This document shows, one piece after another, positions 642-30,539 of a stretch of 37,281 nucleotides of DNA; the first letter of the stretch is position 1; every line of letters starts with the position of its first letter. This stretch comes from Candidatus Levybacteria bacterium RIFCSPHIGHO2_02_FULL_37_13 (GTDB lineage Bacteria; Patescibacteriota; Microgenomatia; Levybacterales; UBA12049), in NCBI GenBank assembly GCA_001782195.1, contig MFNZ01000002.1:1-37281 (forward strand), given 5' to 3'. The translations under genes and the position numbers were made by a program. The notes beneath the pieces are model-generated. The model was not told the DNA's origin. It saw only the letters and a list, made by a program, of their open reading frames with translations, and did not search any database.

Positions 642-1229
642 TTAGAAATTAGAAATTAGCTCCACAGCTCCCTTTCTTATTACCTTCCAGGGATTTATTG
701 AACAATCAATTACAGTCGACGCTTGTTTAACTGAACACTCTCCAAAAACCACATAATCAACTAATTTTACGATATCTTTGTCTAAATCTTCAAATCTATA
801 CGGCGTTTTTTCTCCATGAAAATTCGCAGAAGGACCAAGAATCGGAACTCCGACTCCTTTTATGATCTCCAAAATAACAGGATTATCGGGAATCCTGACT
901 CCAATAGTTTTACCCCCACCCCTGACAAGCTTAGGAACTTTATCAATTCTGCAAGGCAGAACAATCGTAAGCCCTCCCGGCCAATACGGCTTTATCAGCT
1001 CATCAATAACATCTTTTGGAATTGGCGACAAATAATCCTTTGCCATCTCAAGACTATCAACCAAAACCGGTGTTGCCTGATCCTTTGGCCTCTGGCGAAT
1101 TCTGAACAATTTTTCTATGGCTTTCTCATCATCAATCCTGCATCCTATTCCAAAAGCAGTATCTGTAGGAAAGATCACTATACCACCATCTCTTAAAACT
1201 TTAATTGCATCTTTAATGTATGCTTTCAT
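642..1229 (-). CDS. tsaC: L-threonylcarbamoyladenylate synthase
   Basis: A 195-residue YrdC/Sua5 domain protein without the Sua5 C-terminal extension. It uses threonine, bicarbonate and ATP to make threonylcarbamoyl-AMP, the first step of t6A synthesis. Visible family features are the N-terminal GGIVIFPTDTAFGIG strand-turn, RIRQRPKDQATPVLV in the substrate pocket, YWPGGLTIVLP, TIGVRIPDNP and the nucleotide-binding LGPSANFHGEKTP. The ATG at 1229 has a GGAAAAG site. The last codons and stop (ISNF-stop) lie in a short run of the 7-bp word TTAGAAA at 642-659, so the C-terminus has been set by that repeat. Confidence 0.95.
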   Translation of the reverse strand: MKAYIKDAIKVLRDGGIVIFPTDTAFGIGCRIDDEKAIEKLFRIRQRPKDQATPVLVDSLEMAKDYLSPIPKDVIDELIKPYWPGGLTIVLPCRIDKVPKLVRGGGKTIGVRIPDNPVILEIIKGVGVPILGPSANFHGEKTPYRFEDLDKDIVKLVDYVVFGECSVKQASTVIDCSINPWKVIRKGAVELISNF

Positions 1230-1240
1230 ATCTTTTCCAT

Positions 1241-1308
1241 GTCATGCCGAATTTATTTCGGCATCTCGTTTACTCATGAACCAGATCCTGAAACAAGTTC
1301 AGGATGAC
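1241..1308. repeat. Palindromic element copy 1 (GTCAT...ATGAC)
   Basis: A 68 bp element with GTCAT at 1241 and its complement ATGAC ending at 1308. The left half is a CCGAA/TTCGG hairpin closed by GTCATG/CATCTC; the right half is a CTGAA/TTCAG hairpin between AGATC and ATGAC. It is closely similar to copies at 22769-22831 and 27755-27817. It lies between tsaE and tsaC and overlaps the last codons of tsaE, providing that gene's TGA stop. Translations of such elements (CHAEFISAS, VQDD) are widespread spurious ORFs in bacterial genomes. Confidence 0.9.
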
Positions 1309-1727
1309 ACAATTGTTATCCTCCTCTTATCCTCATCCAAGTATTCAAACTTAATATTCCATCTCTTCTTTGGTAGCAAATTTCCCATCTTCTCCGCCCA
1401 CTCGATAGCTACAATGTTTTCCGGATTTTTAATAATTTCCTCAATTCCTAAACTTTCAATATCTTTTTCATTCTGAATTCTATACAAATCAATGTGATAA
1501 AAACTTCCAACTTCTAACTTATAATTCCTAACAATGATAAATGTTGGCGATATAATTCTTCTTTTTATCCCAAGCCCTTTCGCTAATCCCTGAACAAAAG
1601 TTGTTTTGCCGCTTCCCAAATCCCCATAAAGAGCAATTACTCCATATTTTAGCCTCGCAAGGTGAGACCTTGCAAATTCTTCTCCAAGTTTTCGTGTTTC
1701 TTCAAAACTATTTGTAATATTATCCAC
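1299..1727 (-). CDS. tsaE: t6A complex ATPase TsaE
   Basis: A 142-residue P-loop ATPase. Walker A is YGDLGSGKTTFVQG at about residue 34-47; SPTFIIVRNYKL and FYHIDLYRI are the switch-like strands typical of TsaE, and IVAIEWAEKMGNLLP is the conserved C-terminal motif. It binds the TsaB-TsaD complex and its ATPase resets it between cycles. The start is a GTG at 1727, preceded by GGAAAAC and overlapping the stop of the lamin-tail gene by 8 bp, so translation is coupled. The final residues (VSS) and the TGA stop come from the palindromic element at 1241-1308. Confidence 0.95.
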   Translation of the reverse strand: MDNITNSFEETRKLGEEFARSHLARLKYGVIALYGDLGSGKTTFVQGLAKGLGIKRRIISPTFIIVRNYKLEVGSFYHIDLYRIQNEKDIESLGIEEIIKNPENIVAIEWAEKMGNLLPKKRWNIKFEYLDEDKRRITIVSS

Positions 1728-2625
1728 TGTAATTGTTTTCCTTTCTGTTTTTTACATAGCTACGAAAGGCAAGTATACCACAAGAGATTAGGAAAATAAC
1801 TCCTACGCCAATTAATATTTTTGAAAGATTACCCGAACTGCTCCCAAGGACTTTTGTCTCTTTTTCAGGAGGTGATATTTTTACTTTAGAATCTGCTGCG
1901 CTTTCCGTGCTTTCTCCCAAAACCGATGTCGGCAAAACCTTTTCTGAAACCTTAGCTAGAGTATTTGTAGGCGAAAACGTAGGCTTTATTGTTGGATCAG
2001 ATTTAATCGGAGTAGGGGTTGGGATTTTGGTAGGAGTAGGAATTTTAGGTGTGGATGTTGGTTTTATAGTTGGTGTTGGAGTTGGAGTTCTTGTCGGCGT
2101 CGGTGTATTTGTGGGAACAGACGTAGGAGTGGCGGTTGGGGTAGGTGCTGGCGTTGACGCATTGTTAGTAGATCCTTTACTTGAAGCCGAAAAAATAATC
2201 CATACACCTGTTCCATCTGTATTTCTACCTGCAGACTGACCTTGTTCTGGAGCAAAGACGTCGCTACCTCGATCTCCATAAGCAACTTCATCAACCAATG
2301 AGGGATTACTTATTCTAAACAAACTGATTACATCTCCATTCTTGTTAAGCTTATTACTCCAATCAAAAGTAGTAAAAGAAAAAGGATCAATTATACCAGT
2401 CAATATTTTTTTATTTGTTGCTTCAAAATCCTCAAGTCGATAGTCAGATAGATCAATTGATGAAACTCCACTATTGTAAATTTCAACCCAATCGGGATCT
2501 GCTATAGTACCTTCTGTATCAGAAGCAAACTCGTTGATAAAAAGTTCTGCGTAAGCTTGGGTTTGTGAGATAAAGAAAGTTAAAAAAACAGCTAAGAGAG
2601 CAGGCCATACCTTTGCATTATTCAT
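1720..2625 (-). CDS. Lamin-tail-domain surface protein with Pro/Thr stalk
   Basis: 301 residues, secreted and anchored. Residues 1-27 are a signal peptide (ALLAVFLTFFISQTQAYA). Residues about 28-145 form a lamin-tail (LTD) immunoglobulin-like domain, seen in FINEFASD, DPDWVEIYNSG, IDLSDYRLED and GDVISLF. Residues about 155-215 are a low-complexity Pro-Thr stalk, then a Ser/Lys-rich region, one TM helix (about 270-290) and a basic tail (RSYVKNRKEN). LTDs in bacterial surface proteins are thought to bind DNA or carbohydrate or to act as adhesins; nothing here fixes the ligand. The gene sits 6 bp after the coiled-coil peptidase gene. Two VLG motifs (SVLGEST, KVLGSSS) flank the stalk. Confidence 0.85.
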   Translation of the reverse strand: MNNAKVWPALLAVFLTFFISQTQAYAELFINEFASDTEGTIADPDWVEIYNSGVSSIDLSDYRLEDFEATNKKILTGIIDPFSFTTFDWSNKLNKNGDVISLFRISNPSLVDEVAYGDRGSDVFAPEQGQSAGRNTDGTGVWIIFSASSKGSTNNASTPAPTPTATPTSVPTNTPTPTRTPTPTPTIKPTSTPKIPTPTKIPTPTPIKSDPTIKPTFSPTNTLAKVSEKVLPTSVLGESTESAADSKVKISPPEKETKVLGSSSGNLSKILIGVGVIFLISCGILAFRSYVKNRKENNYSG

Positions 2626-2631
2626 GCTACA

Positions 2632-3864
2632 CTATCCGTTATAAAATCCGTATTGAAATATTTGCGATGTTGAATAGTAATCGGAGAATTTGAGATCCGG
2701 GCCATACCATGGATCATTAATAACGTAGTCTCCATTTGACCCACTCTTTAATACAAGAAAATGCGTACCTACACTATTGGTCGCAACTTTAACGCCTACA
2801 ATAACCGGATTTCCTGCTGCAAGCTTTGCATCAATCGCATTAAAATCACGTTGCCAAATAGATTGGAATTTTCCATCTGCCCAAGGAATGAGCATTGAAG
2901 CAGTATCGGCGAAATAATACCATGAACTTGCCGCAACATCAGCGGGCGTTACATTTACACCCTTTTTCTTCATAACCATAGCAACCGATGTCGCAAGACA
3001 TCCTACTTCCCACGTTTGGTCCTGAGATGTGCCAATCCTATTCCTACCCCATCTTTCGTCTCTTTGATTATAATACCAGCCATCAGGACTTGGCTGGGCA
3101 GGCAGAATCTGGGCTCCACCTCTTGAGGACGCAAACGACTTAAAGCCACTTATCTGAAGCTCTGCTTCTTTTAGTAACTGCTGGTATTTGCTCTCGTCAT
3201 TTTTAGTTACAACCAACAGATTTTGCTTACTCTTTTTTTCCAGATCCAATTGCGACGTATATGCCTCAAGTTGCAGCTTAAGACTCTCTACTTTCTTTTT
3301 CTTTTCTTCAAAAATTTTCTTTTGGTTTATATAATCGTTTTTGGCAGCTTGAGTATCGTAAATAAGTCTTTTATCATGCGACTGCGCAATTTCAAGATAG
3401 TTAAGTCTTGAGAAGTAATTTGAGGCATTACTTGATGACAAAAGCACTTCAAACGGCTTAACCATTCCCGCCTGATAAGTGGCAACTATTCTATTAAGAA
3501 GAATTTCCGAAAGAGTATCTAAAGCCTCTTGAAGGCTTGTTATCTTTTTAGTCGCTATGTCAATATCTAAAACAAGATTTGAAATATCCTGCTTTGTAGC
3601 AAATATTCTTGCTTCCGATAATTTTATCTGATTATCCATAATAGCAATTTGAGAAGAAAGAGTTTTGCCTTTTTCCTTAAGTTCTGCAATTTTGTTTTTT
3701 AGACTCTGTATCTGATCTTCTAATTCCTTTTGATTTTGTGATGTATCCAGAGAAGGTGTTGGGGTAGGTGTTTGATCTTGCGCAAATACAGATGGATAAT
3801 TAAATACGCTGAATGTTAGAAAAAAAACAATAATTAAACCTATTATTAGCGTAAAGTGTTTCAT
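2632..3864 (-). CDS. Secreted coiled-coil protein with C39-like cysteine peptidase domain (PcsB/EnvC-like)
   Basis: 410 residues from the ATG at 3864; a longer frame back to 3933 would overlap ftsX and adds a non-signal-like leader, so I prefer the shorter start. Residues 1-28 are a signal peptide ending VFAQD. About 40-240 is a long coiled coil with two helical runs, as in PcsB, CwlO and EnvC. The C-terminal 140 residues match C39-like peptidases: WYYNQRDERWG, catalytic Cys in EVGCLATSVAMV, His in GTHFLVL and Asn/Asp in VINDPW. Directly downstream of ftsE-ftsX, it fits the role of the FtsEX-controlled peptidoglycan hydrolase, though PcsB carries CHAP and EnvC a degenerate M23 domain. The role is inferred from context. 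Confidence 0.82.
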   Translation of the reverse strand: MKHFTLIIGLIIVFFLTFSVFNYPSVFAQDQTPTPTPSLDTSQNQKELEDQIQSLKNKIAELKEKGKTLSSQIAIMDNQIKLSEARIFATKQDISNLVLDIDIATKKITSLQEALDTLSEILLNRIVATYQAGMVKPFEVLLSSSNASNYFSRLNYLEIAQSHDKRLIYDTQAAKNDYINQKKIFEEKKKKVESLKLQLEAYTSQLDLEKKSKQNLLVVTKNDESKYQQLLKEAELQISGFKSFASSRGGAQILPAQPSPDGWYYNQRDERWGRNRIGTSQDQTWEVGCLATSVAMVMKKKGVNVTPADVAASSWYYFADTASMLIPWADGKFQSIWQRDFNAIDAKLAAGNPVIVGVKVATNSVGTHFLVLKSGSNGDYVINDPWYGPDLKFSDYYSTSQIFQYGFYNG

Positions 3865-3880
3865 AAAATTCCATAGGATC

Positions 3881-4744
3881 CTATTTAAGATATCTGATAA
3901 CTGCCATAAAGCTGGAAATTCCACCAAGAACAATTGCGAGCAAAACTTCTATTCCCAGAACAAGGAAGAGGAAGGTTGGAGGAATAGGAAAAACCGGAAT
4001 CTCGTGCAAAAAAGTGGACAAAAATGGAGTTGCATACCATAAGGCGCCTAATGCCAATCCCCATCCAAGAATTGCTCCCACAATCCCGTAAAGTACTCCC
4101 TCAAAAATAAACGGCCAGCGAATATACCAATTTGTTGCGCCAATAAGCCTCATTATTTCAATATCTTCTTTCTTGTGTGAAATCTTGATCCCAACAATAA
4201 TTACCATTATAAGAATTGCATCAACTACCAAAAATGTAACAAGAGCAATGCCGACTTTCCTAAGCACTTCTGTCCATTCTATAAGTTTTGAAACAACCTG
4301 TTTTGGAAAAACTACCCGTTCAACTATAAGTGATTTTTTGAGATTATCCGCAATGGATGATAAATCGTTTATAGAAACACTTGAAATATGGAATGAAGAA
4401 GGCAAAATATCTGCTGTTACTAACTCCAAAAGAAGAGGGTCGTCTTTATTTTGTTCCCGGTAAATCTTAAGCGCTTCTTCTTTGGAAACAAAACGAATAC
4501 TTGCTGTTTTACCGCTTTCCTCCAATTGCTTTTTAAGCGCATCTATTTCTGTCTGTTTTGCTTCGTTTCGGAAAAATACATCTACTTGGGGTAAAGATTC
4601 AAAATAATTAATAATCATTGCCGAGCCCCATACCGCAAAGCTAAAAATTGACACAACAAAAAAAGTTTGGAGAATTATAAAAACAGCAGTAAATGCCTGA
4701 TATGGAGAACGCCTAATATTGTGCCACATTGTTTTTAAAATCAT
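3881..4744 (-). CDS. ftsX: Cell division ABC transporter permease FtsX
   Basis: 287 residues with the FtsX plan: cytoplasmic MILKTMWHNIRRSPYQ start, TM1 (about 20-45), a large extracellular loop (about 46-150; QVDVFFRNEAKQTEIDAL and RFVSKEEALKIYREQN are typical), then three C-terminal TMs with the conserved KKEDIEIMRLIGATNWYIRW coupling segment. A 310-residue frame is open but its first 23 codons lie inside ftsE; the ATG at 4744 is one base after the ftsE stop and gives the family start. FtsX relays FtsE ATP hydrolysis to an extracellular wall hydrolase, here probably the next gene, 16 bp downstream. Confidence 0.95.
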   Translation of the reverse strand: MILKTMWHNIRRSPYQAFTAVFIILQTFFVVSIFSFAVWGSAMIINYFESLPQVDVFFRNEAKQTEIDALKKQLEESGKTASIRFVSKEEALKIYREQNKDDPLLLELVTADILPSSFHISSVSINDLSSIADNLKKSLIVERVVFPKQVVSKLIEWTEVLRKVGIALVTFLVVDAILIMVIIVGIKISHKKEDIEIMRLIGATNWYIRWPFIFEGVLYGIVGAILGWGLALGALWYATPFLSTFLHEIPVFPIPPTFLFLVLGIEVLLAIVLGGISSFMAVIRYLK

Positions 4745-4745
4745 A

Positions 4746-5444
4746 TTACTTGACCCCCGAAGCTTTACGCGAAGGGGGTTCATCGCGAACCAATCTTCCT
4801 TTATCCAATCCAATAACCCTTTTTGAAAGGTTTTTTACAATCTCTGTATTATGCGTTGCCATGATAATTGTTGTTCCTTTTTCGTTAATACTCTCTAACA
4901 ATTTCACTATTTCCCATGAAGTTTCCAAATCCAAATTGCCTGTCGGCTCATCAGCCAAAACTATATCCGGGGACAAAACAAGCGCCCTGGCAATCGCAGC
5001 TCTTTGCAATTCACCGCCGGATAACTGAATAGGGAATTTATCTTTGTGATTAATTATCCCTACCTTTTCCAATGCCTCCTCTACTCTCTTTTTTATATCT
5101 GCCTTTGGGACTTTTGCAATCTCCAAAGACAAAGCGATATTTTCAAAAATTGTTTGATCCAATAATAGCTTTAAATCCTGAAAGACAAATCCGATTTTTT
5201 TTCGTAAAGTAGGAATTTTGCCATGAGGAAGTTTTACAATATCAAAGTCAGCAACAGTAATACTCCCAGTCGATGGAAGCAAATCTCTAATCAAAAGCCT
5301 AAAAATTGTTGTTTTTCCAGAACCGGTAGGCCCAACTAAAAATACAAATTCTCCCTTATCAACCGAAAAGTTTATCTCCGAAAGAGCAAAAACTCCTGTG
5401 CCATATTTTTTTGAAACCTTATCAAGTTTTATCATGCATGTCAT
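4746..5444 (-). CDS. ftsE: Cell division ATP-binding protein FtsE
   Basis: 232-residue ABC ATPase. Walker A GPTGSGKTT (about 38-46), Q-loop FVFQDLKLLLDQ, signature LSGGELQRAAIARAL, Walker B IVLADEPTGNLD and the switch His in MATHNTEIV are all intact. The sequence is the FtsE type (KVSKKYGTGVFALSEINF). It forms the cytoplasmic half of FtsEX. The ATG at 5444 overlaps the preceding stop (ATGA); an internal ATG at 5435 (MIKLDKVSKKY) is closer to the family start and cannot be excluded. The C-terminal tail ends right before the ftsX start. Confidence 0.97.
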   Translation of the reverse strand: MTCMIKLDKVSKKYGTGVFALSEINFSVDKGEFVFLVGPTGSGKTTIFRLLIRDLLPSTGSITVADFDIVKLPHGKIPTLRKKIGFVFQDLKLLLDQTIFENIALSLEIAKVPKADIKKRVEEALEKVGIINHKDKFPIQLSGGELQRAAIARALVLSPDIVLADEPTGNLDLETSWEIVKLLESINEKGTTIIMATHNTEIVKNLSKRVIGLDKGRLVRDEPPSRKASGVK

Positions 5445-21467: not shown

Positions 21468-22079
21468 TTAAAGCCTTACCTCCTTTACTATAATAGGCTT
21501 TAATTTATTGATTGCTATGTATCTATGATTATACTTCTTCATCTCACCTTTGGTCAATTCGCTTTCGTGATAGTATTTTTGAACATCAGGAAGGTAGAAA
21601 AAAGAACGATACGGATAACCATGTAAAAGTTTCATGTGCGGTTTTTTAGCAATTTCTCCTTCCACTTTTCCCATCCGGCTCCATACATTTCCATTTGGCA
21701 ATGCTAAAGATACTACTAATCTAAAAACAGCTTTCCTATTATCCTCCGGTAATTTTTTTGAAACTTTTATCATATAATTTATCAAATCCTCATCGCTTGC
21801 CTCGAATCCTAGCCATCTTCTGCTTTTTATTCCAGGAGCATTATTTAAAGCTGATATCTCAATTCCTCCATCATCTGAAATCGCCGGTAACCCGCTTTTT
21901 TTGGCATAAAACAATGCTTTTTTCTGTGAATTTTCTTTATATGTTTTCCCAGTTTCTTCAATGTCATCGATAATTCCAACGTCTGATAATGAAACGAGTT
22001 GTACTGGCAAATCAGACAAAAAATCTTTATACTCCCTCAACTTCCCCGGATTCGTCGTAGCAATCAGAAGTTTTTTCAT
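21468..22079 (-). CDS. rdgB: RdgB/HAM1-like non-canonical purine NTP pyrophosphatase
   Basis: 203 residues. Family features are KLLIATTNPGKLREYKDFL at the start (phosphate-binding), ETGKTYKENSQKKALFYAKK, SGLPAISDDGGIEISALNNAPGI (metal-binding Asp pair) and GKVEGEIAKKP. The typical C-terminal SHR motif is replaced by NHRYIAINKL. It hydrolyses dITP, ITP and XTP to keep them out of DNA and RNA. The ATG overlaps the lysS stop (ATGA). Confidence 0.92.
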   Translation of the reverse strand: MKKLLIATTNPGKLREYKDFLSDLPVQLVSLSDVGIIDDIEETGKTYKENSQKKALFYAKKSGLPAISDDGGIEISALNNAPGIKSRRWLGFEASDEDLINYMIKVSKKLPEDNRKAVFRLVVSLALPNGNVWSRMGKVEGEIAKKPHMKLLHGYPYRSFFYLPDVQKYYHESELTKGEMKKYNHRYIAINKLKPIIVKEVRL

Positions 22080-24358
22080 GCAGTTTCTATTCCAAACAAA
22101 TCAAGTTTTCCGCCGCAATATTTTATTATTTTATCGCAAGCCTCTTGAAGGGATTTTTCAACTTGCTGTGGGGTAATATCATAAACTCCATCAACATTTA
22201 TGTATAAATTTTTTGTGGTAAGTTGCACAGCCGTTCTTTGGGCATCCCGATAATTAAAATCAATATTGTATCCTCCCTTTTTATCAAAATATGCAATTTC
22301 ACCATTTTTGTATTTCGTTGACTCTTTATCACCCAATAACAAAATCTCTTCCCTTTCTCTTGCAAAACGGAGAGCAGTTGGAAATTTAATAGTATCCAAA
22401 TCAAATGCTCCGATTGAAACCCTATGTTTCATAACAATCAAATTGTATGCGTCAACACATGTATTAATAGTATACAAACCTTTGTTAAGAGCAACTCTTC
22501 GAAGAAGCGCTTCAGGACTTGGTCTTCGCGAATGCCAATCAATTCCTGTTGCTTTATACAACTTCCTGTAACTTTGAACTTCCGGATATTTTCCCAATTC
22601 TTCCGTTATTAAACCCTCGAGCGACTTTAACAATTCTTTTTTTTCTTTTTCTAAATTAGAGTCTGATTTTTTAATATCAACGCCTTTAATAATAGCAATA
22701 CCAATAGAAACAGACGGAAATTTTTGTTTTAGATTTTGATCTATGGAAAAAATTTCGGGTCGAACCTTGTCATGCCGAATTAGTTTCGGCATCTCGACTG
22801 AAACGAGATCCTGAACCGAGTTCAGGATGACACGTAAATGCGCCGCTTCCTCAAACCTCTTCTGAACAAACTCTTTCTCAAGCGATAAGATCAACCATCC
22901 TGCCTTAGGACCGTGATCTTTCCCGATTAACGACAGATAAATTGCTGCAAACGCATCTTTCGATGGAAGACTTATTTCTTTTGACCATTCATATAATTTT
23001 TTTTGGAACTCTTCAGCATCCCATTTTTTTTCAAGCTCTGATGCAATTTTTTTAAGATATTCCTTTTGCGCTAAAGATAAACTTTTTGCTGTATCCGGTA
23101 GTTGTTTTTGCACCTCAAACTTTTCAGATTCTGCAGCATATTTCTCAAGCCAAATTCTTGCATATTTTACCCATTCCCCTAAGTTTTCTTTTTTTATCTC
23201 CTGCTCCATATTGGGCATTTGCACCCAATGAACAAGTTGCGAAAATCTAACGATTGGAGGCTTTTGAGGTTTATTAACTTGCGACAATTCAAATATTCGA
23301 GCTAAGTCTTCATCTTTTTTATTGTAATAAGCATCCGCTGCCTTCTGATAATCATCGAATAACTTTGGAATTGTATCGCCTGATGGATCAAAGTTAATTG
23401 CCTGATTAATTTTTGTTTTTACCATTAAAAATCGCAAAAGCTCAGGCGGTAATATTTCCAGCATCTCAGACGAAGACGAACCAAGTCCTTTGGAGGAAGA
23501 CATCTTTCTTCCGCCAACCAGGAAAAATTCGTATCCTACCGGATAAGGAACAGGATAATTAAGAACTCTTTTGCATACCAAAGATGCCAAATCATGCGAA
23601 CCGCCCCTGCTCATATGATCTTTACCAGCACCCTCAACTGTTACTCCAATTGCTTTCCATTTACACGGCCATTCAACTTTCCAAGGAAGTTTACCAACAA
23701 CTCCATCAATGCTACTAAACGGTGATATCTCTCCTTTAAATCCGCATCCTTTTGTCCACTTTACTTTCTCAATTTCGCAGACAAATGAAACTTTCTCTCC
23801 ATCCCAATCAAAAACTCGAGTTGTTGATTGTTTTCCGCATTTAGGACAAAATACCGAAAAAGGGAACCAATCGCTTGCCAATTTTCTTTTATAAAGTTCC
23901 TCATATATTCCCCTAATAACTTCTGCTTTATCCAAACATATCTTTATCAAAGGATTCATTTTACCGCTTAAATATAAATCACTCGCCCACAAAATTTCCG
24001 AATTACACCCAATTGCCGTAAAAACATCTATAAACTCCTGAGCATAATAATCTGCGTAGGATTTAAAACCTTCAACCGGTGATGGGACTTTGTAAAGAGG
24101 CATTCCTAAATACTTTTCGAATTTTTCGCGTGAGAGATATACAGGCAAAGCGTCCATTGGATCATGATTGTCAAAAATATAAGTATATTTTGCTTTAACA
24201 CCTTTTGATAACAATGCTTTGTACACCAAATCATGAATTACAACCCCACGCAAAGCGCCAACGTGAATTCTTCCGGATGGAGTTTTCATGTCATCTACCC
24301 ACTCAAGAGGTAATTTTCTTTTTTTTAAATCCTCAGCAACCTTATCCGCCCAAAACAT
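22076..24358 (-). CDS. lysS: Class I lysyl-tRNA synthetase fused to a B3/4 domain
   Basis: 760 residues from the ATG at 24358; an ATG 15 bases upstream (24373) overlaps the TATAAT box, so the inner start is preferred. Residues 1-509 are a class I LysRS, the archaeal/spirochete type: PSGRIHVGALRG (HIGH motif), a FCPKCGKQ zinc site, EGAGKDHMSRGGSHD and GGRKMSSSKG (KMSKS motif). Residues about 531-760 are a B3/B4 domain as in the PheRS beta subunit and in stand-alone COG3382 proteins: PSVSIGIAIIKGV, YRKLYKATGIDWHSRRPSPEALLRR, YTINTCVDAYNLI and the late IDFNYRDAQRTAV segment. Residues 510-530 are exactly a 63 bp palindromic element read in frame. The B3/4 part may help tRNA binding or editing; that is inference. 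Confidence 0.92.
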   Translation of the reverse strand: MFWADKVAEDLKKRKLPLEWVDDMKTPSGRIHVGALRGVVIHDLVYKALLSKGVKAKYTYIFDNHDPMDALPVYLSREKFEKYLGMPLYKVPSPVEGFKSYADYYAQEFIDVFTAIGCNSEILWASDLYLSGKMNPLIKICLDKAEVIRGIYEELYKRKLASDWFPFSVFCPKCGKQSTTRVFDWDGEKVSFVCEIEKVKWTKGCGFKGEISPFSSIDGVVGKLPWKVEWPCKWKAIGVTVEGAGKDHMSRGGSHDLASLVCKRVLNYPVPYPVGYEFFLVGGRKMSSSKGLGSSSSEMLEILPPELLRFLMVKTKINQAINFDPSGDTIPKLFDDYQKAADAYYNKKDEDLARIFELSQVNKPQKPPIVRFSQLVHWVQMPNMEQEIKKENLGEWVKYARIWLEKYAAESEKFEVQKQLPDTAKSLSLAQKEYLKKIASELEKKWDAEEFQKKLYEWSKEISLPSKDAFAAIYLSLIGKDHGPKAGWLILSLEKEFVQKRFEEAAHLRVILNSVQDLVSVEMPKLIRHDKVRPEIFSIDQNLKQKFPSVSIGIAIIKGVDIKKSDSNLEKEKKELLKSLEGLITEELGKYPEVQSYRKLYKATGIDWHSRRPSPEALLRRVALNKGLYTINTCVDAYNLIVMKHRVSIGAFDLDTIKFPTALRFAREREEILLLGDKESTKYKNGEIAYFDKKGGYNIDFNYRDAQRTAVQLTTKNLYINVDGVYDITPQQVEKSLQEACDKIIKYCGGKLDLFGIETA
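22769..22831. repeat. Palindromic element copy 2, in frame within lysS
   Basis: 63 bp from GTCAT to ATGAC, nearly the same as copies at 1241 and 27755. In the lysS frame it spans exactly 21 codons (VILNSVQDLV then SVEMPKLIRHD) and adds no stop. It sits between the last LysRS helix (KRFEEAAHLR) and the start of the B3/4 domain. Confidence 0.92.
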
Positions 24359-24364
24359 AGTTGT

Positions 24365-24370
24365 ATTATA
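24365..24370 (-). promoter_or_regulatory. -10 box for lysS
   Basis: Minus-strand TATAAT ends six bases before the ATG at 24358 and is itself within the longer open frame. No Shine-Dalgarno is present. This placement is why the start at 24358 is chosen. Confidence 0.6.
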
Positions 24371-24393
24371 CATGATTTAATATTTTAAAAACT

Positions 24394-26540: not shown

Positions 26541-26549
26541 ATTATAGCA
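26541..26549 (-). promoter_or_regulatory. Extended -10 promoter for murB
   Basis: Minus-strand TGCTATAAT ends six bases before the murB ATG and overlaps the kbl stop codon. No Shine-Dalgarno is present in the six-base gap apart from none-pairing TCCCTC, so this is one of the clearest leaderless candidates. Confidence 0.7.
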
Positions 26550-27741
26550 CTTTTAGCTCTTTTGCGACTTTCCTGAAGGCTTTAATTCCAAAATCCAAAT
26601 CTTTCCTTGAATGAGAGGCAGATGGAATTACTCTAATTCTTGCCTTTCCTTTTGCTACCATTGGAAATACAATTGGTGTTGCAAAAACGCCTTCTTCAAA
26701 AAGTTTTGCGCTAAACTTTTTTGCTATTTCTTCATCCCCAAGCATTACCGGCGTAATCGGAGTCTTTGAATATCCAGTATCAAAACCTAATTTTTTGAAT
26801 TCTGATTTTATATAGTTGACATTATCCCACAATTTCTTAACAACAGCATCCGATTCCTGAAGAATCCTGACTGCTTCCAAAGCTGCTGCCGCATCCGGAA
26901 TAGTCAGTGCTATAGAAAAAAGCCTTTGTCTTGCTTTTTGATTAAAAAAATCAATTAACGTTTTTCTTCCCGAAATAAATCCTCCTATGACAGAAAATGC
27001 CTTTGAAAGACTCCCGATTTCAATATCTACTTTACCCAAAAGGCCAAAATGATCCACAATTCCCCGTCCGCCCTTACCCATTACGCCCTCGCCATGCGCA
27101 TCATCAACCATCGTTAATGCTCCGTATTTTTTTGCTAACCTAACAATCTCAGGAAGAGGCGCCAAATCCCCATCCATTGAAAATACCCCATCTGTAACTA
27201 TCAAAACAACTGGTAACTCTCCGTTTGACTTTGGAGCTTGAGAAAGTCTGCCTGCTTGTTTCAACTGTTCTTCCAGGCTTTTTGAATCTGCGTGTTTATA
27301 AATAAATTTATTTTTAACCTGAGAAAGTTTTATCGCGTCAATAATTGATGCATGATTCAGCTCATCAGAAATTACAATATCTTCTTTGCCGATGATTGTC
27401 TGAATGGCCGCGCAATTAGCCATATAAGCGCTTGAAAAAACCACCGAAGCTTCTGTTCCCTTAAATTCTGCGATTGCTTTTTCAAGCTCAAGGTGAAGTA
27501 CGTGTGTTCCGGCAAGCGTTCTATATCCGGTTCCAATGCCATATTTGTCAACCGCAACCTTTACTGCTTTTTTGAGCCGCTCATCAACTGCAAATCCTAA
27601 ATAATGGCTGGAGCAAAAATTAAGCTGCTTTTTACCATTGATAGTAAGATATGCTCCTTGCCCGGATTCAATGGTCTTAGGAATCGCACCCAATTTCACA
27701 ACGTCTTCTAATTTTTTATAGAAATTATCGATTCTGCTCAT
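26542..27741 (-). CDS. kbl: Glycine C-acetyltransferase (2-amino-3-ketobutyrate CoA ligase)
   Basis: 399 residues from the ATG at 27741 ([15 protein letters not shown]); the frame runs on to an ATG at 27759 inside a palindromic element, which is not likely used. It is an alpha-oxoamine synthase with [74 protein letters not shown] and the Schiff-base Lys in [13 protein letters not shown]. Biotin or haem synthases share this fold, but the tdh gene upstream favours Kbl, which cleaves 2-amino-3-ketobutyrate with CoA into glycine and acetyl-CoA. Confidence 0.9.
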
Positions 27742-27754
27742 ATACTTACACACT

Positions 27755-27817
27755 GTCATACCGAATTTATTTCGGCATCTCGAACGGAACGAGATCCTGA
27801 AACAAGTTCAGGATGAC
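27755..27817. repeat. Palindromic element copy 3, between tdh and kbl
   Basis: 63 bp from GTCAT to ATGAC with two internal hairpins (CCGAA/TTCGG and CTGAA/TTCAG). It occupies most of the 87 bp spacer and would be transcribed as a strong structure between the two genes. Confidence 0.92.
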
Positions 27818-27828
27818 AAATGATATAG

Positions 27829-29468: not shown

Positions 29469-30539
29469 CTAGTATAGCTTCTTAAATTGATCAATTAGAC
29501 TATAAGCGACTTTCTTAGTTTTTTCAGACACATTAACCATTACTATTCCTTCATTCGGCTGTCCATAAAAAATAACTGACCCCAATGGAACACCAAGGAT
29601 TAAAGGCAAGACGGAAAGGTCTTCCTCGCCTTCTATTTGAAGTATAATTCGCTGATTGTCTTCTTTTAATTTAAAGATTTTTGATATCGCTTTAAAAAGC
29701 GATGGAGTAATGCAACCTGCCGGATTGTTAACTTTAAAAATTTTTTCTCCTCCGGAAAAACCAAGCCCCGCAAGGCTTGAGAACTTTTTCTTTCTTGCGA
29801 CCTTAAAATCTATAACTGAAATATCTTGATTAAACCCCAAGTCATTAAAAGTTTTAGTAGTAACATCTCCTACAGTTATTATATAAGGATTGTCAGTCAT
29901 TCTGGTCGAAGATCCAGGATCTCCATTGTCATTCTGAACTTGCTCGCCTCGCGGCGAAGCGGGTTTCAGAATCTCGGGAATATCATTATTTTTCAAAAGT
30001 TTACCAAGTGGCATCTTAACATATGCCCGTACTGATTCTGAAATAAATAATTTATGACTTAACCACAAAGGATTAATATATGATTTTCCTTCACTGTCAA
30101 TTTCTCCCTTTCTTATTTTTGATGAAGAAATATATTCATTATTCTCATTTTTAATTAAAGGGCAGACCTCTATCTTTAACGGATACTTTTTTTGTTCTTT
30201 CCTTTTCAAATTAACCTTTTCTGCTCCCAATACTGTATTTTCAGAGACGATTATCGCTTCAATTGGTAAAGATTCCCATATTTTTGGGATAAAAACACTA
30301 TCAATTGGCGTTATAGATATTTTCTCCAGAGCCTTTTCTTCTTTTAAGAATTTTTCAAGCTGCAGTTTTCTTATCCGGTAGCTATCAACCCCCTCAGTTT
30401 TATTCTTTTCTTTAACATAAGCATCTGTTGTCAAGCCAATAAGAAGTTTAAGGCTTTTGGATAGAGCGTATCTCAAAAACTCTCTATGTCCTTTATGAAA
30501 ATGGTCAAATGTTCCTCCGCAAACAACAAGATTATACAT
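29469..30539 (-). CDS. Archaeal-type phosphopantetheine adenylyltransferase fused to GTP-dependent dephospho-CoA kinase
   Basis: 356 residues. Residues 1-150 are a nucleotidyltransferase of the archaeal/eukaryal PPAT group (COG1019): VVCGGTFDHFHKGHREFLRY, IGLTTDAYVKEKNK and the ISSSKIRKGEID motif. Residues about 170-356 match DUF359, the GTP-dependent dephospho-CoA kinase family of archaea: MPLGKLL, IITVGDVTTKTFNDLG, ISVIDFKVARKK, VNNPAGCITPSLFKAI, LQIEGEEDLSVLPLIL and GSVIFYGQPNEGIVMV. Together they would do the last two steps to CoA. Residues about 190-215 are a palindromic element read in frame, joining the kinase's first motif to the next. The gene overlaps the upstream nucleotidyltransferase gene by 8 bp. 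Confidence 0.9.
   Translation of the reverse strand: MYNLVVCGGTFDHFHKGHREFLRYALSKSLKLLIGLTTDAYVKEKNKTEGVDSYRIRKLQLEKFLKEEKALEKISITPIDSVFIPKIWESLPIEAIIVSENTVLGAEKVNLKRKEQKKYPLKIEVCPLIKNENNEYISSSKIRKGEIDSEGKSYINPLWLSHKLFISESVRAYVKMPLGKLLKNNDIPEILKPASPRGEQVQNDNGDPGSSTRMTDNPYIITVGDVTTKTFNDLGFNQDISVIDFKVARKKKFSSLAGLGFSGGEKIFKVNNPAGCITPSLFKAISKIFKLKEDNQRIILQIEGEEDLSVLPLILGVPLGSVIFYGQPNEGIVMVNVSEKTKKVAYSLIDQFKKLY
29896..29975. repeat. Two palindromic units inserted in the PPAT/DPCK gene
   Basis: Two units of the GTCAT-hairpin-ATCTC family in the same orientation: 29896-29923 (28 bp) and 29928-29975 (48 bp, whose loop holds a GC-rich CTCGCCTCGCGGCGAAG stem). They share the half-site GTTCAG(A/G)ATGAC with the other copies. 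Read in frame they give ILKPASPRGEQVQND and DPGSSTRMT, a low-order stretch with no stop. Confidence 0.85.

Follow-up and report, generated by a model that had tools for sequence, protein, structure and literature searches.

A short palindromic repeat lies within the coding sequence of a lysyl-tRNA synthetase gene, lysS, in a draft MAG (1.09 Mb, 66 contigs, 84% complete), at the point where the synthetase is joined to a B3/4 domain. Did the repeat create this fusion, or did it enter a fusion that already existed, and does its translated product serve the enzyme in any way? The window, the whole 37,281-nucleotide stretch of DNA that we analysed, holds the host gene and its neighbour as follows:

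22076..24373, minus strand: lysS, the host gene, coding for a fusion of a class I (archaeal-type) lysyl-tRNA synthetase (LysRS) and a B3/4 domain, 765 residues
22847..24358, minus strand: LysRS part, residues 6-509 (TIGR00467, E 5.9e-108)
22112..22570, minus strand: core of the B3/4 domain, residues 602-754 (PF03483, E 2.7e-22)
21468..22079, minus strand: gene downstream of lysS, whose product we take to be XTP/dITP pyrophosphatase-like from a recognized N-terminal motif

The host protein is a class I LysRS by its TIGR00467 score (361.6 bits, against a curated cut-off of 147.55), and the nearest named relatives of its LysRS are Candidatus Levybacteria/Levyibacteriota, of the Microgenomates group of CPR. 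Similarity to B3/4 partners begins at about residue 539 in a homology comparison. In an AlphaFold2 model based on an alignment of 38 sequences, mean pLDDT is 89.4 and pTM is 0.64, a value at which the relative placement of the LysRS and B3/4 domains is not fixed. Only residues 1-3 and 516-533 have a pLDDT below 50, and the low values in the element insert are partly expected, because the insert is missing from most of the alignment.

The repeat itself has two parts:

22768..22832, minus strand: 65-bp head-to-head REP dimer with TGTC tags at both ends, recognized from its sequence, its copies and its DNA fold
22804..22832, minus strand: first half-element in the sense of lysS, with tag TGTC, stem ATCCTGAA/TTCAGGAT, loop CTCGG and tail CTCG, from the sequence and the DNA fold
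22768..22796, minus strand: second half-element, with CGAG, stem ATGCCGAA/TTCGGCAT, loop ACTAA and tag GACA

The palindrome reads TGTCAT...ATGACA, and its inner 63 bp (22769-22831) are exactly codons 515-535 of lysS, which code for the stop-free peptide VILNSVQDLVSVEMPKLIRHD. It follows the end of the LysRS model (residue 509) and precedes both the onset of B3/4 homology and the Pfam match from residue 602. The earlier note had described a 63-bp palindrome at these coordinates, a multiple of three in length, codon-aligned, free of stops and lying between the synthetase and the B3/4 domain; all of this held, with a terminal T and A extending the element to 65 bp. Folded as single-stranded DNA, the element forms three stems, two of them long and one, in the centre, short (z = -6.1); none of 200 shuffles folds as well. 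The loop triplet of the second half, an in-frame TAA in several other copies, is CTA in lysS. The element-bearing protein is presumably made and functional, and peptides spanning VILNSVQDLVSVEMPKLIR in the lysS product would mark translation of the element.

Could the arrangement be an assembly chimera or a binning artefact? The genome is a draft MAG in 66 contigs, repeats break assemblies, and the contig of one relative, G002, ends inside the element. Yet the ORF is unbroken through the repeat, and both the order of its domains and the gene downstream are as in relatives. The pyrophosphatase-like gene also follows lysS in several relatives, fused and unfused, which argues against a chimeric contig. 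The LysRS of G002 (49% identical) has this element at the same position and in the same frame, so that the arrangement is matched on its LysRS side; this protein is seen up to the contig edge, where it stops within the element in SSS-VILNSFQNLNEMPKLVRHDK, and it stands outside the 67 fusions counted below. We therefore regard an artefact as extremely improbable.

The element is dispersed. There are about 30 full or partial matches in the genome, 15 of which cover the element almost from end to end at E < 1e-9, which excludes chance, and matches were found in 34 of 100 relatives. Two other copies lie in the window:

27754..27818, plus strand: intergenic copy, 88% identical to the lysS element, providing the predicted ATG of ORF 26542-27759
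1240..1309, plus strand: copy of 70 bp, 84% identical, with a centre 5 bp longer; intergenic, overlapping the 3' end of ORF 1299-1727

These copies had been called nearly identical to the one in lysS; they are real, but at 84% and 88% identity that description was too strong. Aligned copies follow a common plan, in which TGTC is followed by a stem of 8 bp that opens with AT, a loop of 5 nt, a CTCG tail and a variable centre, and then by the same parts in inverted order. Of 16 aligned copies, 15 have TGTC at each outer end. Full copies are dimers with their tags outside, and single half-elements occur in the genome too. An Rfam search of the window gave no match. Most full copies are open in just one of the six reading frames; taken by halves, the second half has one open frame per strand and the first half has two.

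Copies within genes are not peculiar to lysS: reading in frame is a genome-wide habit of the element. Twelve in-frame copies fall within 11 long ORFs of this genome (lysS and 10 others), and 10 of the 11 ORFs match known families, namely LysRS, ValRS, ArgRS, RecJ, a MurF-like protein, FolC, RsmI, FemAB, PMT_2 and an OmpR-type regulator. RecJ holds two insertions, and when it is aligned with a solved homologue, an insert of about 23 residues falls in an alignment gap. RsmI has about 36 additional residues between two parts that match its solved homologue, and ValRS and ArgRS have extra residues relative to solved structures in the same region as the insert. Among relatives, in-frame copies were found in ArgRS (G009) and in G045, where the host is a synthetase of the I/L/M/V type that has a LeuRS editing domain. 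Another domain junction in the window is occupied by a palindrome of the same type:

29927..29973, plus strand: single, loop-extended palindrome, in frame between CTP_transf_like (residues 6-144) and DUF359 (residues 227-352) of the CoaD/DUF359 protein encoded by ORF 29469-30539

Its peptide ILKPASPRGEQVQ is found again in the ArgRS copy (L016). FolC (L023) and L024 also carry other repeat-like peptides, FDFAQGKVGAPARHR and DLPAGRQ, which suggest further families of in-frame repeats.

What kind of element is this? CGTC-tagged REPs, listed from five phyla (Di Nocera et al. 2013, PMC3733652), carry a terminal CGTC tag, often in the form TGTC, together with an 8-9 bp stem starting with a paired AT and a 4-5 nt loop; head-to-head dimers predominate, and most, not all, of their unpaired tails fit CCA (PMC3733652). 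Copies within genes code for 20-30 amino acids, tRNA synthetases being among the host genes (PMC3733652). The lysS element shares the TGTC variant of the tag, the head-to-head dimer, the lack of a linked transposase and the coding copies within genes, tRNA synthetases included, and its two stems with their 5-nt loops agree with the REP plan and have the dimensions of family CGTC-2. It departs from most of these REPs in its tail, which is CTCG and not CCA, and differs also in its host, which as a CPR bacterium belongs to none of the five phyla. Placed by architecture and not by the CGTC-1 to CGTC-4 consensus sequences, the element fits the CGTC-tagged REP superfamily.

This superfamily includes Rickettsia conorii RPE-4 and RPE-6 (equivalent to CGTC-4 and CGTC-1; PMC3733652), and the resemblance to Rickettsia palindromic elements proposed in the earlier note is borne out in that sense: like RPE-4 and RPE-6, these are small, dispersed palindromes translated in frame within unrelated housekeeping genes (12 insertions in 11 ORFs). 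The comparison is one of architecture and behaviour, and the host phyla are unrelated; the better-known class of RPEs is much longer, at about 150 bp (PMC10969869). REPINs and GTAG REPs, which are mobilised by RAYTs, likewise pair two REP hairpins in inverted orientation, with tags at the ends, and also occur as single halves, but the lysS element has no GTAG tag. Neither palindromic elements in CPR nor a LysRS-B3/4 fusion turned up in the open-licence papers that we searched.

How the element moves is a separate matter. Comparison of the flanks of 16 full copies revealed no excess identity for k = 1-9, and thus no target-site duplication of the kind that marks DDE-type MITEs. No Y1 transposase was found in this genome (84% complete) or in the element-rich relatives G001, G004, G017 and G060, and the motif flanked none of the 20 Y1 loci that we inspected in relatives, a further difference from REPINs. 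A RAYT/Y1 enzyme was accordingly rejected as the mobiliser, being absent from the genome and unlinked to the element in relatives (presence-presence Fisher P = 0.18). The lack of Y1 in element-bearing genomes is in line with the literature, according to which CGTC repeats have no dedicated transposase (PMC3733652). Copy number and position are what speak for movement here, and they suggest that the copies arose by transposition-like insertion.

As the earlier note had considered, the fusion might owe its existence to the element, which would have bridged lysS and a neighbouring B3/4 gene that was still separate. The element does sit exactly at the junction, and unfused LysRS proteins end near residue 510, just upstream. 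In a census that took in 100 relatives, the order, 374 genomes from the class and 80 named contigs, we counted 67 distinct LysRS-B3/4 fusions, of which 60 have element-free linkers of 11-21 residues (mean 16.9). The element-free fusion is spread over many CPR phyla (Levy-, Gottesman-, Roizman-, Davies-, Woese- and Beckwithbacteria, WWE3 and Dojkabacteria), and the same B3/4 domain also has a fusion partner that reads as a class II-type LysRS, again with no element between them. In a FastTree phylogeny of the LysRS domain, the lysS gene studied here is sister to a fused, element-free gene with 95% support, as is the G023 gene to another with 97% support. The element-bearing lysS is therefore nested among fused, element-free relatives, which places the fusion before the entry of the element. 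Bridging is refuted as a general origin of the fusion and is very improbable as its origin here.

The same tree and census bear on the history of the B3/4 module. On well-supported branches, class I LysRS switches between fused and unfused forms at least 11 times, which we read as frequent loss, gain or exchange of the module. One of the 67 fusions, a Roizmanbacteria LysRS (L213), has a second B3/4 domain in tandem. A fusion of the same B3/4 domain (68-70% identical) to the apparent class II-type LysRS is encoded at L071 (G049, 2816-4990) and at L125 (G109), and at L071 the same pyrophosphatase gene lies downstream; it seems that the synthetase part was swapped here while B3/4 stayed. At L078 (G088, 905-3643), a 30%-identical B3/4 domain forms the N-terminus of an ArgRS-like protein, so that LysRS is not the only synthetase of CPR bacteria to which B3/4 has been attached.

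If the fusion came first, was the element simply added to its linker? The proposal of an insertion into an existing linker stands as to the order of events, but not as a clean addition of 63 bp. The linker is 26 residues long here and 16-21 in the nearest fused relatives, the closest of which have about 76% LysRS identity, giving a net gain of about 5-8 residues instead of 21. With 21 residues in, about 11-13 residues of native linker have been lost, and element-bearing linkers keep 5-11 native residues by count. The element may have replaced the native linker, or later deletions may have trimmed it.

The remaining six fusions of the census have linkers of 26-43 residues: this gene, G023, G046 and G012 (Levy-type), and G217 and G239 (Gottesman-type). 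All six contain palindromic repeats that recur elsewhere in their own genomes, the evidence for G012 being weak; recurrence was seen at 17 places for L041, 7 for L032, 10 for L083, 8 for L084 and 4 for L038 (weak), and also for L031. Several families are involved. The G046 repeat (GTCATTGCG...CGCAATGAC) is distinct from the lysS element and has CGTC/GACG ends, and the G217 repeat is unrelated to it. Folding z-scores set only some element-bearing linkers apart from plain ones; length, GC content and copy number are more telling. With G002, repeats occupy the LysRS linker or junction in at least seven lineages, this one included.

Such recurrence could mean that the peptide, or the hairpins in mRNA or DNA, have been selected in lysS, for example to set the distance between domains, to pause translation between the domains or to regulate mRNA decay, and native linker sequence did shrink in element-bearing genes, as though the overall length were being kept in check. 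Most fused enzymes have no such element, however, the junction repeats belong to different families with unrelated peptides, and the same elements are present in many unrelated genes; we judge a selected role quite unlikely. The junction could instead be a true hotspot targeted by a mobilising machinery. If about 100 repeats per Mb were scattered evenly over the genome, repeats in 6 of 67 linkers would be far more than expected (P about 1e-6); if they survived only in non-essential DNA at about 1 per kb, with linkers as permissive as intergenic DNA, some 5% of such linkers would carry one and 6 of 67 would be unremarkable (P about 0.15). Both densities are guesses. No common target sequence and no target-site duplication was found, and we judge targeting of this kind quite unlikely.

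We favour, with a probability of roughly 86%, a history in which a selfish, CGTC/TGTC-tagged REP dimer entered the disordered linker of an old LysRS-B3/4 fusion, where it was tolerated and translated as a 21-residue spacer with no specific role. Under this reading, a small selfish palindrome of the RPE-4/RPE-6 architecture would have inserted into the already existing linker; random insertions would be purged unless they kept the frame and hit a tolerant loop, and the insertion in lysS would have done both. The element would have survived because one of its frames is usually free of stops and because additional residues are tolerated at the site. The resulting spacer would be floppy and is probably neutral.

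Protein-coding palindromes were first regarded as a peculiarity of Rickettsia, and REPs within genes were later found in a few other phyla (PMC10969869, PMC3733652). The setting here is a streamlined CPR genome, with elements in frame in essential genes and one orthologous junction hit by different repeat families. For annotators, it is a caution that CPR enzymes may contain repeat-coded inserts. The replicate natural insertions at a single site would allow the effects of repeat peptides to be compared on a known enzyme. More tentatively, and as a possibility that we hold to be doubtful, several unrelated palindrome families of Levybacteria and other Microgenomates may settle again and again at the places where the domains of essential enzymes meet, above all in tRNA synthetases, with the LysRS-B3/4 junction as a preferred site hit independently at least seven times. 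If so, repeat-coded peptides would be a standing source of new protein linkers.
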